Program-made: the position numbers and the translations under genes | In this document: positions 58,423-62,309 of the stretch, in pieces | How the letters are laid out: each line of letters begins with the position of its first letter | Numbering within the stretch: position 1 is the stretch's first letter | Source: Butyrivibrio sp. | GTDB lineage: Bacteria > Bacillota > Clostridia > Lachnospirales > Lachnospiraceae | Length of the DNA stretch: 64,000 nucleotides | Assembly (NCBI GenBank): GCA_015056565.1 | Contig: SVGB01000002.1 | Location: forward strand, 186,001 to 250,000 | Direction: 5' to 3' | Notes under the pieces: generated by a model | Seen by the model: the letters and a program-made list of their open reading frames with translations, nothing else | Told to the model about the DNA's origin: nothing | The model's database searches: none

Positions 58423-59616
58423 TTATTTGAGTCTGCGTGACAACGCAAATTGTTCCTGTGACACTTTAGCTAAAACATTCTGAGTTTCTGCTGTTTTTCC
58501 GAGGAATCCGAACTGTTTTGAGAAAAGCGCTACTCCGCAGTGGAGTTTACCAGCACAACGTTTTTTCATTGCTCTGTCTATCTCTATCAGTATGCTCTGC
58601 ATTACCTTGTCTTTAAGGCCCCAGCTCTCAAGGTAAGCAAGGATTTCATCGCAGGTGGCACATCCCATGAGGATCTTAACCTGGCTTGAAGTACCTCCAA
58701 TAAGTGCTGTATGGGCGGAAAAGATCTCTCTTCTGCCGTCAGATGCAACTGAATTAGTATTCATTATTCCGGCAGCAAGCTTAACAAGCTTTCCAACATT
58801 TCCTACAAGGAGGATGTTTTCTGCACCCTCTTCCACAGCACAATCTATAGCCTGTCCAGGGAGATTGTAGCAGTTTACTGCTGTTTTAAGATCAACATGA
58901 AGAGCCTCATTTATCTCTTTTGCACAGTATTTGCCAGGACTCATAAGCAGTGACTTAACACCAGTCCTAGTCTGGGCTTTTATCTGTTCATTGATAGATT
59001 CTGAGATTTCTCTCATATGTACTGAAGGTATGGATCCGTAGGCACCTATAATCCTGATGCCGCCTGCAAAGCCGCTCTGAGGCGCTGAATTTCTGGCAGC
59101 GATCATCATTCCTTCAGGACATGATACGGTGATCAGTAGCATCTGTGCCCCATCCGACATCTCACATACATTTGCAACCGCGTCAAATATAAGGGCTCTT
59201 GCTTCCTTTTCAATAAGTGGTTCTCCCTTACCGATGCCAGGCATCTTGGTTGCAGCAACACCAATTCCCTCACCAGCTTTTAAAAAGAGATTTCCATAGC
59301 GAATATCAGTTGCCGAACCCTCTAAAGCTTCTCTCACATCAGCAAGATGTGAAACCTTTACGTGGATGTTGGCTCTCTCTCTTATGTCAGGAGCCATTCC
59401 GCCTTCCATGGTACAGATGTATTCGCATGACTGATCATTGCAGCTCTCATCTACCCTCTGGACCATATATGTTCTGGTAGCACCATTCTTGTGCTGGATT
59501 GTCACATTCTCATAGACAATCTTAAATATAAGCTCTGCAGAAGCTGCTCTTGCTGCTGCAGCTACGCAGTCACCACTTGATATGGGGCTAAGGGTAAGTC
59601 CTGTAAATCTGTCCAT
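58423..59616 (-). CDS. cbiD: Cobalt-precorrin-5B C1-methyltransferase
   Basis: An enzyme of the anaerobic cobalamin pathway that methylates C1 of cobalt-precorrin-5B. The 397-residue CbiD family protein opens MDRFTGLTLSPISSGDCVAAAARAA, has an EGIGVATK-like GEGIGVAATKMPG, and LVGNVGKLVKLAAG in the SAM-binding half. GAAGGAG precedes the ATG. No other cobalamin genes are adjacent and no B12-box (GCCACTG) is seen upstream, so it is isolated from the rest of the pathway. Confidence 0.9.
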   Translation of the reverse strand: MDRFTGLTLSPISSGDCVAAAARAASAELIFKIVYENVTIQHKNGATRTYMVQRVDESCNDQSCEYICTMEGGMAPDIRERANIHVKVSHLADVREALEGSATDIRYGNLFLKAGEGIGVAATKMPGIGKGEPLIEKEARALIFDAVANVCEMSDGAQMLLITVSCPEGMMIAARNSAPQSGFAGGIRIIGAYGSIPSVHMREISESINEQIKAQTRTGVKSLLMSPGKYCAKEINEALHVDLKTAVNCYNLPGQAIDCAVEEGAENILLVGNVGKLVKLAAGIMNTNSVASDGRREIFSAHTALIGGTSSQVKILMGCATCDEILAYLESWGLKDKVMQSILIEIDRAMKKRCAGKLHCGVALFSKQFGFLGKTAETQNVLAKVSQEQFALSRRLK

Positions 59617-59739
59617 AGAAAAGCTCCTTCTTTTGGATAAGACAAGCTTAATATAAAAACTGTTGCGTTAACAATATATCGTAATCAGTTATTTATTATT
59701 TCGAATTACTTTATTTTTTCTTTATAAACCGTCCATATT

Positions 59740-59768
59740 TTGTCCAAATTTTGTCGGTATCATATAAA
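59740..59768 (+). promoter_or_regulatory. Promoter of the first C-rich sRNA
   Basis: Plus strand: TTGTCC (59740-59745), 17-bp spacer, TATAAA (59763-59768). It ends 5 bp before the first sRNA hairpin, so the transcript would start at about 59774. Confidence 0.7.
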
Positions 59769-59773
59769 CATAT

Positions 59774-59888
59774 CAGAAGTAACATACTTCTGACTCCCCC
59801 AACAAAACTTTTTTCATACCGGGTCAATCGGCTCCCCACTGATTGACCCCTCCTCCCAAAACTTAAGCACCTTGAAGGTGCTTTTTTT
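59774..59888 (+). ncRNA. Candidate C-rich small RNA, copy 1 (about 115 nt)
   Basis: Order of elements: hairpin CAGAAGT-AACAT-ACTTCTG (59774-59792); a single-stranded 27-nt block at 59794-59820 starting CTCCCCCAACAAAAC; an 11-bp hairpin (59821-59831 with 59839-59849) with loop CTCCCCA; then CTCCTCCCAAAA (59850-59861); and an intrinsic terminator, AAGCACC-TTGAA-GGTGCTT plus T-run (59865-59888). A good promoter lies just upstream. The second copy 535 bp away keeps all loops and replaces the stems with different but still pairing sequence, which is strong evidence for a structured RNA. C-rich loops of this kind bind Shine-Dalgarno sequences in Listeria LhrC and streptococcal csRNAs. The function here is inferred. 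Confidence 0.8.
59865..59888 (+). terminator. Terminator of sRNA copy 1
   Basis: AAGCACC (59865-59871) pairs with GGTGCTT (59877-59883) and is followed by T. The last bases overlap the stop codon of the minus-strand hypothetical gene. Confidence 0.85.
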
Positions 59889-60189
59889 ATGCCGGGATTG
59901 CGGTATCTTCTATTTCCTTATTTTCAACGCTTTCCTTGGTTTCCTCTGTGAGAGCCTGATCAGTCTTTCTAGGGCCACGAACGCCAAAGCTTCCGTTGTA
60001 TCTAAGCTCCTTTAGTATCTTCTTGACGTTCTTAAGCTCTTTTTCCATATCTGATGCACTGGCGCAGACAACAGTAGGTACACCACTGCCACTAAACTCA
60101 ACCTTAAGGCCTGCATCTTTAAGTGCCTTAAAAGCTTTAAGCTTATCTGTTGTACTGATCTGCTCCAATTCTTTTTCGTTCTTATTCAT
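59887..60189 (-). CDS. Small hypothetical protein between the two sRNAs (100 aa)
   Basis: Family not recognised. The core (residues 12-65) alternates helix and strand (DKLKAFKALKDAGLKVEF, TVVCASASDMEKELKNVKKI), and the C-terminus is acidic and probably disordered. GAAAGG precedes the ATG. It sits on the strand opposite to, and between, the two sRNA genes. Its 3' end meets the sRNA1 terminator, and its 5' leader faces the sRNA2 promoter region. It could be a protein partner or simply a neighbour. Confidence 0.65.
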   Translation of the reverse strand: MNKNEKELEQISTTDKLKAFKALKDAGLKVEFSGSGVPTVVCASASDMEKELKNVKKILKELRYNGSFGVRGPRKTDQALTEETKESVENKEIEDTAIPA

Positions 60190-60277
60190 ATATCTTGTGC
60201 CTTTCTTTATTTATAAACACAATATATCATATTTTGACAAAAATTTCATCAGCCTTAAAAAAATATTCAAAATAAAG

Positions 60278-60307
60278 TTAAGTTTTTACATTAACTACCG
60301 ATATATC
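60278..60307 (+). promoter_or_regulatory. Possible promoter of the second C-rich sRNA
   Basis: Plus strand: TTAAGT (60278-60283), 18-bp spacer, TATATC (60302-60307), ending 3 bp before the first hairpin. It is weaker than the promoter of copy 1. An alternative TTTACA at 60285-60290 has poor spacing. Confidence 0.35.
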
Positions 60308-60308
60308 T

Positions 60309-60451
60309 ATTGAGAATAAAAATTCTCACTCCCCCAACAAAACTTTTTTCATACCTGGGCAGTTTAACTCCCCATTAAACTGCCCTCCTCCCAAAAAATC
60401 TTGTGAAAACACACACTAAAAAAGAAGGTGACCCTAAACACCTTCTTTTTT
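60309..60451 (+). ncRNA. Candidate C-rich small RNA, copy 2 (about 140 nt)
   Basis: Same architecture as copy 1: hairpin TGAGAAT-AAAA-ATTCTCA (60311-60328); the identical 27-nt block (60329-60355); an 11-bp hairpin GGGCAGTTTAA/TTAAACTGCCC (60357-60367 with 60375-60385) with the identical loop CTCCCCA; then TCCTCCCAAAA (60386-60396); and a terminator (60422-60451) after a 25-nt spacer that copy 1 lacks. Both hairpin stems differ in sequence from copy 1 yet remain fully paired, so the shape is conserved rather than the bases. Confidence 0.78.
60422..60451. terminator. Bidirectional terminator of sRNA copy 2 and the C1 peptidase gene
   Basis: AAGAAGGTG (60422-60430) pairs with CACCTTCTT (60439-60447), with T-runs on both strands. 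It ends sRNA2 on plus and the protease gene on minus. Confidence 0.85.
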
Positions 60452-60458
60452 ACTGTCC

Positions 60459-62291
60459 TTATTTATTAACTGTATAGGCCTTTACAAAGAAGTCCTTGTC
60501 ATCCTGTCTTACCATTGAAAGCCCATCATCTGAAATATAATAGCTGTTGCCACTGGCCTCATATTTGTTGCGGATGCTCCCCACAAGATTTCTCCATTCA
60601 TCGTAGTTGGGTTCTCCCATCATGTCCTGTGCCTCTTCAAAAGGAAGCCTTCCCTCTGTAGCTGGCCTTATCAGGATAAAGAACTTATCGCCTTTTTCAA
60701 GTGGTATTTCTTTCTCCAGCTGGAAAGTGTGGTATCCGGCACTTATGGCTGATATTTTTTGGGATAAAGCTGGTGCAAACTGATCATCAAAAGTAATGCC
60801 ATCAGCTGTAACGTCAGGGTTTATATAGATATCAAGTTCATACTGCTGGTACAGGTCAATGCTCATAAGACCTATAGCCCTAAGATCCTGACTTCCTGAT
60901 GACTCATATAGCATTCCGTATGGGTTCCTGGCATTCGAATAGGCCGTCATCATGTTCTCAGAATCTTCAAGACAGCTTACAGTGTTGGTTAAAAATCCTG
61001 CACTCTGGTAGTTGTTGTCATACCAGTTGTCATCTCCAGGTGCTGCCACTTCATAGGCTGCGGCATTACTTATATCTACAGTCTCATCGTAATACGACAG
61101 ATAAAAGCACCCTTCCTTGCCCGAGCTGGTACCCCAGCTGTTCTTGCAGAGCCATGCTCCATCCGCTTCTGGAGTCGTTATAAAGTTCGAAGCGCTGTAC
61201 TCATCGTCCCAGCCAATTATCAGTACCTCGTGATTGGCAGTTTCTGCCTTCTCTCCTCCAAATGAAGAATAGTTGCTTGAGCTATGGTTCTTCCAGTACT
61301 TGGAATCAGCATTGATCCCTATTGTAGCAGAGCCATGCTCCATGACCATCTGCTTCACCAGTGTAATATTGCTTATCTTAGCGGGCATCTGGTCCACCGA
61401 CTGCACATGATACAGGCTTTCATAGGCTCCGGAAGGTACTTCCGCATTATCAGAAAAGATATATTTTGCTCCGTAAGTGCTCTTAAACTCGTCCCTTCCG
61501 CTCTCAGCAACTGGTCCCTTCCAGGCAGTAAGCATACTGATGACGAAGTCTGTTACTCCGCCGCAGTCAATATATCCTGTATCATAGTCAAAAAGCCATG
61601 CTCCAGGCTCTTCGTCTCTGTTTACAAGCTCCCTATAGTCGCCATCTATAGTTCCATTAAGTGACCCTTCGGCCTTATGAAGGTTGTAATATGCAAGGTG
61701 CTTTTCCGAAAGATCTATGTCTTCAGGTTTAAGATCTGCATGGTGCTTCAAAAGATCGCTCTCCACTGCTCCCAGTGCTGCAAAGGTCCAACAAAGCGAG
61801 GTATAACCCTGATCTTCTACGTCTGTGATATAGCACTTTCCGTCCACATTCCTCGAATCATATTTGGTTGGAATTTCTTTTTCTGAAAAAGAATTGATAT
61901 CAACCGGAATCACATCGGTAAAATCCTGGTTGCTATAAAATGAGCCAATATCGCCATCTCCAATCTGGACAGCTTCTGGCAAAAGAACCTTTCTCACCAG
62001 TTCCACATCGCTGGTAAGAGGGTTATTGACTGTCTCAGCAATTACGCTGCTGGTAAAAGAGCCGCCGCCTGAAGAAGCAGTCGTTTCAACATCACTGCTG
62101 ACATTGTCATCAGGAGTTCCTACAAGTCCCTGAAGATCCTCATCTGCATTGTAGCCAGTCGCCGTCTCATCTCTCCTTGATGAATTGGAAGGCATAGTAT
62201 TCCTGTTTTTGATAACAATAAGCGAAACTACTCCTACTATCACTAAAGCGATGGCTATGGCGATGATGGCATTTCTACGACTTTTCTTCAC
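60459..62291 (-). CDS. Membrane-anchored papain-like (C1 family) cysteine protease
   Basis: A 610-residue protein with an N-terminal signal-anchor helix after KKSRRN, an acidic Ser/Thr spacer to about 120, and a C1 protease core. Catalytic residues are Cys167 (DQGYTSLCWTFAALG), His354 (NHEVLIIGWDDE) and Asn384 (KNSWGTS). The C-terminal part after about 425 fits the lectin-like domain seen in many clostridial C1 proteases. It is likely exposed outside the cell, with cell-wall or host/plant protein substrates. A GTG at 62291 with GAGGG nine bases upstream is the best start; the frame opens at a TTG (62306). Confidence 0.9.
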   Translation of the reverse strand: MKKSRRNAIIAIAIALVIVGVVSLIVIKNRNTMPSNSSRRDETATGYNADEDLQGLVGTPDDNVSSDVETTASSGGGSFTSSVIAETVNNPLTSDVELVRKVLLPEAVQIGDGDIGSFYSNQDFTDVIPVDINSFSEKEIPTKYDSRNVDGKCYITDVEDQGYTSLCWTFAALGAVESDLLKHHADLKPEDIDLSEKHLAYYNLHKAEGSLNGTIDGDYRELVNRDEEPGAWLFDYDTGYIDCGGVTDFVISMLTAWKGPVAESGRDEFKSTYGAKYIFSDNAEVPSGAYESLYHVQSVDQMPAKISNITLVKQMVMEHGSATIGINADSKYWKNHSSSNYSSFGGEKAETANHEVLIIGWDDEYSASNFITTPEADGAWLCKNSWGTSSGKEGCFYLSYYDETVDISNAAAYEVAAPGDDNWYDNNYQSAGFLTNTVSCLEDSENMMTAYSNARNPYGMLYESSGSQDLRAIGLMSIDLYQQYELDIYINPDVTADGITFDDQFAPALSQKISAISAGYHTFQLEKEIPLEKGDKFFILIRPATEGRLPFEEAQDMMGEPNYDEWRNLVGSIRNKYEASGNSYYISDDGLSMVRQDDKDFFVKAYTVNK

Positions 62292-62309
62292 TTCTTGCGC
62301 CCTCAAAGA

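Follow-up and report, generated by a model that had tools for sequence, protein, structure and literature searches.

A putative multicopy family of hairpin-jointed, C-rich small RNAs in Lachnospiraceae with predicted anti-initiation arms

The small RNAs (sRNAs) RsaE/RoxS are under two-component control, and direct repeats with an 11-bp period are usual for regulators of the OmpR/PhoB type. In the available sections of PMC3091779 and PMC4507080, the promoters of the streptococcal csRNAs are described as being under two-component control and carrying the 11-bp direct repeat TTTAAG-N5-TTTAAG, and the csRNAs themselves as having unpaired sequence complementary to the Shine-Dalgarno (SD) sequence and the start codon, with CAU present in 53 of 61. 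The 11-bp repeat spacing of CiaR, which drives the csRNAs, is documented in PMC3091779, where sequences "very similar" to the conserved csRNA nonamer are also counted. LhrC of Listeria monocytogenes, according to the available sections of PMC4132741, exists in five copies, blocks SD sequences under the control of the LisRK two-component system, and carries three redundant UCCC motifs, located in a hairpin loop, a single-stranded stretch, and the terminator loop.

Two elements resembling such RNAs were identified on the plus strand of a 64,000-nt stretch of Butyrivibrio sp. DNA (here called the window). Both are intergenic and flanked by genes on the opposite strand, and the downstream genes are convergent with each of them. 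Copy 1 (type A) neighbors the minus-strand gene for CbiD (58423-59616); between the two sRNA genes lies a minus-strand ORF (59887-60189) for a 100-amino-acid protein without a Pfam match, which is convergent with copy 1 and is not part of the RNA. Copy 2 (type B) neighbors a minus-strand C1 peptidase gene (60459-62306). The sequence-only reading had described a shared 27-nt block, a shared loop, and compensatory change in the stems, and all three were borne out. The block, CTCCCCCAACAAAACTTTTTTCATACC, has the same letters at 59794-59820 and 60329-60355; the loop CTCCCCA stands in both copies on an 11-bp stem (59821-59831/59839-59849 in copy 1 and 60357-60367/60375-60385 in copy 2); and the stems differ in sequence between the copies, each being fully paired, with a single G·U in copy 1 and Watson-Crick pairs elsewhere. 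In the RNA, the block contains CUCCCCC and U6-CAU and is unpaired in copy 1, where it possibly forms an anti-start-codon arm. It is preceded by a 5' hairpin, TCAGAAGTAACATACTTCTGA in copy 1 (59773-59793; from sequence, fold, and alignment) and TGAGAATAAAAATTCTCA in copy 2 (60311-60328; from sequence and alignment). The stem-loops (59821-59849 and 60357-60385; from fold and covariation) are followed by putative anti-SD arms, which read CTCCTCCC in copy 1 (CUCCUCCC in the RNA; 59850-59857; from sequence and alignment) and TCCTCCC in copy 2 (UCCUCCC in the RNA; 60386-60392; from sequence).

An intrinsic terminator was predicted for copy 1 at 59865-59888 by folding and by a terminator scan, and the 3' hairpin of copy 2 is formed by a 14-bp inverted repeat flanked by T runs (60417-60452), which would serve as its terminator and possibly as one for the minus strand too. 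The scan found four terminator-like sites in 1 kb of the window region (0.4 expected). Of the earlier claim that each copy ends in an intrinsic terminator, the part concerning copy 1 stands, the site being listed on the plus strand at 59865-59883; the copy 2 hairpin does fold, but the scan reports it on the minus strand only. The 17-bp-spaced promoter proposed for copy 1 was absent from the promoter-scan output, which held one match, on the opposite strand, against 2.7 expected. Terminator-like sites accompany 38 of 43 type A, 13 of 13 type B, 2 of 2 type C, and 31 of 77 type D copies. With their predicted ends, the transcripts would be about 115 to 120 nt (copy 1) and about 140 to 145 nt (copy 2) long. 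At the level of sequence, the terminators, the convergent neighbors, and the conserved upstream repeats of types A, D, and E (see below) are features of independent sRNA genes.

Copy 1 folds at -35.9 kcal/mol (z, -6.4) and copy 2 at -35.6 kcal/mol (z, -9.1), and in each case none of 200 shuffled sequences was equally stable. CAU and CUCCUCCC are unpaired in the fold of copy 1, with the hairpin between them; in the minimum-energy fold of copy 2, the U run pairs with an A run 3' of UCCUCCC, and CAU and UCCUCCC are free. A covariance model was built and genomes were searched, as the sequence-only reading had suggested, and the stems were found to covary in relatives as well. In the genus alignment (31 distinct copies from L001 to L033, with identical copies and the out-of-genus, element-free matches L004 to L009 excluded), 99.7% of the stem cells were paired, 81 cells were double-changed, and double-sided change was seen at 8 of the 11 stem pairs, whereas sliding the partner by 1 to 3 columns left no more than 53% paired. 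The covariation score of this unfitted alignment was 0.682 (0.269 when shuffled). For 40 family-wide sequences, whose alignment was fitted to the structure, compensatory change was found at all 11 pairs, and the score was 0.968, compared with 0.245 after shuffling and no more than 0.133 after sliding. G·U outnumbered A·C by 23 to 0 in 21 distinct genus stems and by 27 to 5 in 68 distinct type D stems (outer ten positions). Because of this excess in distinct stems, the RNA is assigned to the plus strand, to which the terminators also point, in agreement with the earlier proposal; on these comparative grounds, we regard the RNA as plus-strand encoded.

Four members were found in the 3.04-Mb genome of origin at E of ≤0.05, namely, the two window copies, a type C copy on contig C44, and a type D copy on contig C3 adjoining an HPr gene; the first model had scored the fourth member at only E of 0.19. 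The sequence upstream of this type D copy is common to Butyrivibrio loci such as L187. Model R1, built from 24 of the 31 aligned genus copies (the source genomes being among those searched), matched 72 of 79 genus genomes at E of ≤0.01 and 45 of the 47 high-quality ones. In many of the genus genomes listed, type B lies ~535 to 680 bp from type A (1.6 kb in G076). Model R3, rebuilt with distant members, matched 203 of 378 Lachnospiraceae genomes and 179 of 334 genera at E of ≤0.01, a threshold at which about 4 genomes are expected by chance; the family-wide and own-genome matches were inspected in part, and some are glgA starts. The family extends far beyond the pair of sister sRNAs from which it had been proposed. 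A class-wide search with R3 matched 15 of 361 genomes, ten of them within Lachnospiraceae; the five outside were weak (E, 0.0023 to 0.0095), and the one that was inspected (L106) reads as a glgA start. The 48 loci offered for the family-wide alignment yielded the 40 matches used, at E of ≤0.001, and since 10 of the 15 named type D loci offered were unmatched, the model counts miss weak type D copies. A type D sequence pattern was found in at least 119 stretches of named genomes. Among the 80 loci listed, most were titled Lachnospiraceae or genera that we take to belong to it, and a few had broader titles (for example, Clostridia bacterium, Clostridiales bacterium, and Ruminococcus sp.); the type D statistics given here refer to 81 matches in these 80 loci.

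The members read share a U run ending in CAUA and a CUCC(U)CCC-like sequence 3' of the stem, with deviations in a few distant matches, and vary in stem sequence, loop, and 5' region. The family core consists of CUUUUU(U)CAUA followed by a covarying hairpin and then CUCC(U)CCC; in types A, B, and C, the 5' arm also has CCCCC and the loop contains UCCCC. Close pairs of members, like that in the window, also occur in other genera (L339, 1736-1804 and 2118-2189; L166, 7118-7165 and 7323-7369). In G432 (contig C26, 96000-134500; L322 and L323), seven near-alike copies lie on the minus strand within 35 kb, among small plus-strand genes that read as acetyltransferases and nudix-like and nucleotidyltransferase-like proteins, in the manner of a cassette array.

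In the window and the 16 loci tested, no copy was covered by an Rfam family at its gathering score, in line with the earlier statement that no such family had been named. At a low threshold, Rfam gave 14 matches in the 1-kb region, one for a type D copy, and one for a type E copy; none reaches its gathering score, and we rejected them as chance matches. Away from the sRNA, nucleotides 1 to 56 of L045 (minus strand) gave an edge match to the DUF3800-I RNA exactly at the gathering score. In the available portions of the literature on Butyrivibrio and Lachnospiraceae sRNAs and on clostridial C-rich sRNAs, no such family was found, nor any named family of regulatory sRNAs for Lachnospiraceae. Thousands of structured RNAs have been predicted from human microbiomes (PMC8040213, available in part); Lachnospir, Butyrivibrio, Roseburia, and Blautia do not occur in its main text as available, and an unnamed candidate in its tables could be the same family. 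Comparison of sequences establishes the structure, strand, family, distribution, and upstream repeats, and on that basis we consider the sRNA family to be real, spread through Lachnospiraceae, and absent from Rfam. Lachnospiraceae are common bacteria of the human gut and rumen, and a multicopy family of readable design that shares a promoter element and occurs in roughly half of the sampled genera may offer a way into their post-transcriptional control.

Direct repeats of the form GTCCATATTTT-GTCCAAATTTT-GTC, with an 11-bp period, lie 5' of copy 1 (59731-59755, plus strand; from the genus search and lag-11 identity) and are probably a response-regulator operator overlapping the -35 region. The repeat sequence GTCCATATTTTGTCCAAATTT (59731-59751) recurs directly 5' of a type A copy in all 11 genus genomes searched, and 11 of its 14 matches in those genomes are at the sRNA, with 3 elsewhere. 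Lag-11 identity upstream of the sRNA exceeded that of shuffled sequences in type A (0.541 versus 0.362 ± 0.009; 43 copies), type D (0.394 versus 0.315; 77 copies), and type E (0.383 versus 0.290; 14 hand-picked copies); the values for type C, from two copies only, were 0.435 and 0.334 ± 0.039, and no such period was present upstream of type B (0.363 versus 0.341; 13 copies). The type D operator consensus, GTTCATATTTTGTTCATAATTCATTTAA, scores 30.0 bits at the type D gene of the same genome. The type A operator appears as a weaker variant of it (median, 7.8 versus -8.2 shuffled; 39 copies), window copy 1 scoring only 3.2, and the operator-model scan did not find it in type B (13 copies) or type C (4 copies). 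In 1.64 Mb of partly overlapping loci, most of them chosen for carrying the sRNA, the model, trained on 76 type D copies, gave 211 distinct matches, of which 204 were followed by an sRNA-like core as defined by a loose pattern; the reversed-sequence control gave 5. One of the seven matches without such a core after it is an operator-like repeat of 25.3 bits near base 1500 of L283 (G066), between genes that read as a sugar-phosphorylase-like protein and a LacI-type regulator.

The upstream repeats resemble PhoP/PhoB boxes. A Pho box was rejected: in three pstS promoters from other genera, TTTACA-N5-TTTACA lies 11 bp from the -10 element, compared with 15 to 16 bp in the sRNA genes (by eye). Because this distance differs, and because TIGR02136 did not find pstS in the genome of origin, the regulator is left unnamed here. 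Types A, D, and E would probably be switched by an OmpR-type response regulator at the 11-bp direct repeats. This element is lacking in types B and C, so that the sister RNAs would answer different signals. An upstream motif close to GTTCTGACA, with TG(C)ACAA or TGGCAA after it, is present in some type B and C copies (L015, L016, L021, and L077; L003 and L312) and takes variant forms in others of these types; it is not clear at window copy 2. A second regulator may act at this motif.

The CAU and CUCC motifs complement the start codon and the SD sequence, respectively, and their order suits antiparallel pairing to one initiation region. Gene calling in 622 kb of the genome of origin gave 430 genes, for which pairing was calculated, with start regions chosen for an SD sequence and preferably ATG, which biases the calculation in favor of an anti-SD/anti-AUG RNA. 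Mean energies with native and swapped arms were -12.79 and -11.33 (type A), -12.73 and -11.22 (B), -13.09 and -10.37 (C), and -12.15 and -10.20 kcal/mol (D). The gains from the native order, 1.46, 1.51, 2.72, and 1.95 kcal/mol, respectively, were smaller at internal ATGs (0.32, 0.61, 0.99, and 0.01 kcal/mol). For two RNAs of G453, a member of another genus (324 genes), the effect of arm order had the same direction. For each of types A to D, mean pairing became weaker in all 20 trials when the 3' arm was shuffled; with a shuffled 5' arm, it became weaker in all 20 trials for type D and in 19 of 20 for type C. The 5' arms of types A and B were no better than shuffled ones, pairing being weaker in only 12 and 13 of 20 trials, with 8 and 7 shuffles equal to or better than the native arm; because of this, general pairing to start regions leaves the strict identity of the 27-nt block unexplained, and the identity would have to be accounted for in another or an additional way, for example by a protein or a specific target.

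According to these calculations, the anti-SD arm is supported in all types, whereas a two-armed clamp on the initiation region is well supported for type D, fairly supported for type C, and unproven for the window copies (types A and B). The anti-SD arms show both conservation and a suitable sequence, and we infer SD binding. A search for genes combining an SD sequence with ATGAAAAAAG gave 38 matches in ten genomes, whereas the reversed pattern gave 3; the genes were mixed, and no single conserved target appeared among the 30 loci read. By a crude hydrophobicity rule for export, 28 of the top 50 partners of type D encode exported proteins, a count reached by none of 40 shuffled RNAs (mean, 14.2; base frequency, 100 of 430), whereas type A showed no such bias (13 of 50, reached by 35 of 40 shuffled RNAs). 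Type C was mixed (mean difference reached by 0 of 40 and top-50 count by 9 of 40), as were the two G453 RNAs (0 and 4 of 40 for the mean difference and 5 and 10 of 40 for the top 50); type B was run without shuffles.

We consider it likely, with appreciable room for doubt, that the window elements are genes of plus-strand, trans-acting sRNAs belonging to a multicopy Lachnospiraceae family that blocks translation initiation. Transcripts ended by intrinsic terminators would present an unpaired CUUUUU(U)CAUA arm, a hairpin free in sequence and kept in pairing, and an unpaired CUCC(U)CCC arm. The C-rich arm would pair with GGGAGG-like SD sequences and, in some types at least, the CAU/U-run arm with a downstream AUG-AAA-AA. 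The hairpin would then lie at the junction, opposite the SD-to-start spacer, and ribosome binding would be prevented. Expression, the class of regulator, target pairing, and repression are presumed in this scheme. More tentatively, and with the balance of probability somewhat against it, the sister sRNAs may form a family-wide response-regulator regulon of jointed clamps, each with an AUG-AAA-AA arm, an SD arm, and a junction hairpin fitting the spacer, of which at least type D would be biased to mRNAs of exported proteins and solute-binding lipoproteins beginning AUG-AAA-AA. If so, the regulon would retune nutrient uptake or envelope traffic across a dominant gut and rumen family.

The identity of 27 nt between copies whose stems and 5' hairpins differ, together with the poor showing of the type A and B blocks against shuffled arms, would also suit an RNA that binds or titrates a protein, the invariant CUCCCCCAACAAAACUUUUUUCAUACC block being held by an RNA-binding protein and merely presented by the hairpin. 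The same has been proposed for the conserved csRNA nonamer in the available sections of PMC3091779. However, what the types have most strongly in common, CAUA after a U run and CUCC(U)CCC, is complementary to the start codon and the SD sequence, and we regard this explanation as unlikely. That types A to C chiefly regulate a single specific mRNA or a small number of them, such as that of glgA, is a quite improbable alternative suggested by the reverse complement of the core, which resembles the glgA start (SD, ATGAAAAAA, TCAGAAG). Four stem-less model matches elsewhere (L048, L049, L106, and L107) read as opposite-strand glgA-like starts, type A adjoins a glgA-like gene in three loci (L010, L011, and L030), and in the window glgA is 1.4 kb from copy 1. 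Yet none of the ten matches that the model gave at E of ≤10 in the same genome is its glgA gene, other members adjoin quite different genes, and one conserved coding start could account for the repeated out-of-genus matches.

The intergenic position and the terminators would fit a cis-acting leader, attenuator, or terminator structure for a neighboring gene, and members in L324 and L335 do lie ~160 to 190 bp 5' of a phosphofructokinase-like gene on the same strand. The downstream genes in the window are convergent, however, and neighbors change with copy and genus (HPr and phosphofructokinase; by reading, aldolase, glutamine synthetase, UvrA, and GMP synthase), which leaves a cis role with a very slight probability. 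Just as slight is the chance of a mobile or repeated hairpin of the REP or attC kind without RNA function: the near-alike copies of G432 are what it would predict, but most copies in G453, G179, G265, and G166 are mutually different, promoter repeats are common to types A, D, and E, and the G·U pairs are strand specific. The reverse complement can also be read as an SD sequence (GGGAGGAG) followed by a start codon (ATGAAAAAAGTT...), as if the minus strand were the gene for a short peptide. We rejected this reading, which has next to no likelihood: a 29-nt hairpin parts the SD sequence from the ATG, the frame stops after 8 codons in copy 2, loop lengths shift the frame between copies, and both the terminators and the G·U bias belong to the plus strand.

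Among known systems, the mmgR/suhB RNAs (RF00519) and the CCUCCUCCC-type RNAs of alphaproteobacteria are similar in having CCUCCUCCC near a hairpin; RF00519 scored 20.5 bits with copy 1 (E, 0.14), half of its gathering score of 41. CcsR may also be comparable. RsaE/RoxS of the Firmicutes gave no Rfam match in the window or the 16 loci tested and are alike as C-rich, SD-blocking sRNAs, RsaE having a UCCC motif (PMC4132741, available sections). LhrC, like the new family, is multicopy. The window copies carry UCCC in the 5' single strand, the loop, and the 3' single strand; their terminator loops have none, so that the third motif precedes the terminator, whereas in LhrC it is located in the terminator loop. 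No anti-start arm is described for LhrC in the available passages of PMC4132741, and the LhrC Rfam model was not matched by the new family. The csRNA nonamer [A/C]UCCUAAA[A/C], with the core UCCUAAA, was not found in any of the sets of 31, 38, and 40 aligned cores or in either window copy, and by eye the CiaR site TTTAAG-N5-TTTAAG is absent upstream of both window copies, copy 1 having GTCCA-type repeats. The csRNAs of the CiaRH regulon are nonetheless alike in being multicopy sister sRNAs with a terminator (PMC3091779 and PMC4507080, available sections), and in the predicted folds of both window copies the anti-SD and anti-AUG sequences are unpaired, as in csRNAs. By analogy with csRNAs and LhrC, blocking of translation initiation is the likely role of the new family. 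In csRNAs, as far as the available sections describe them, the anti-SD and anti-AUG sequences share one unpaired region, whereas here a covarying hairpin stands between two arms. If this reading is true, a hairpin-jointed anti-initiation design would take its place beside the csRNA and LhrC types, apparently independent of them in origin.
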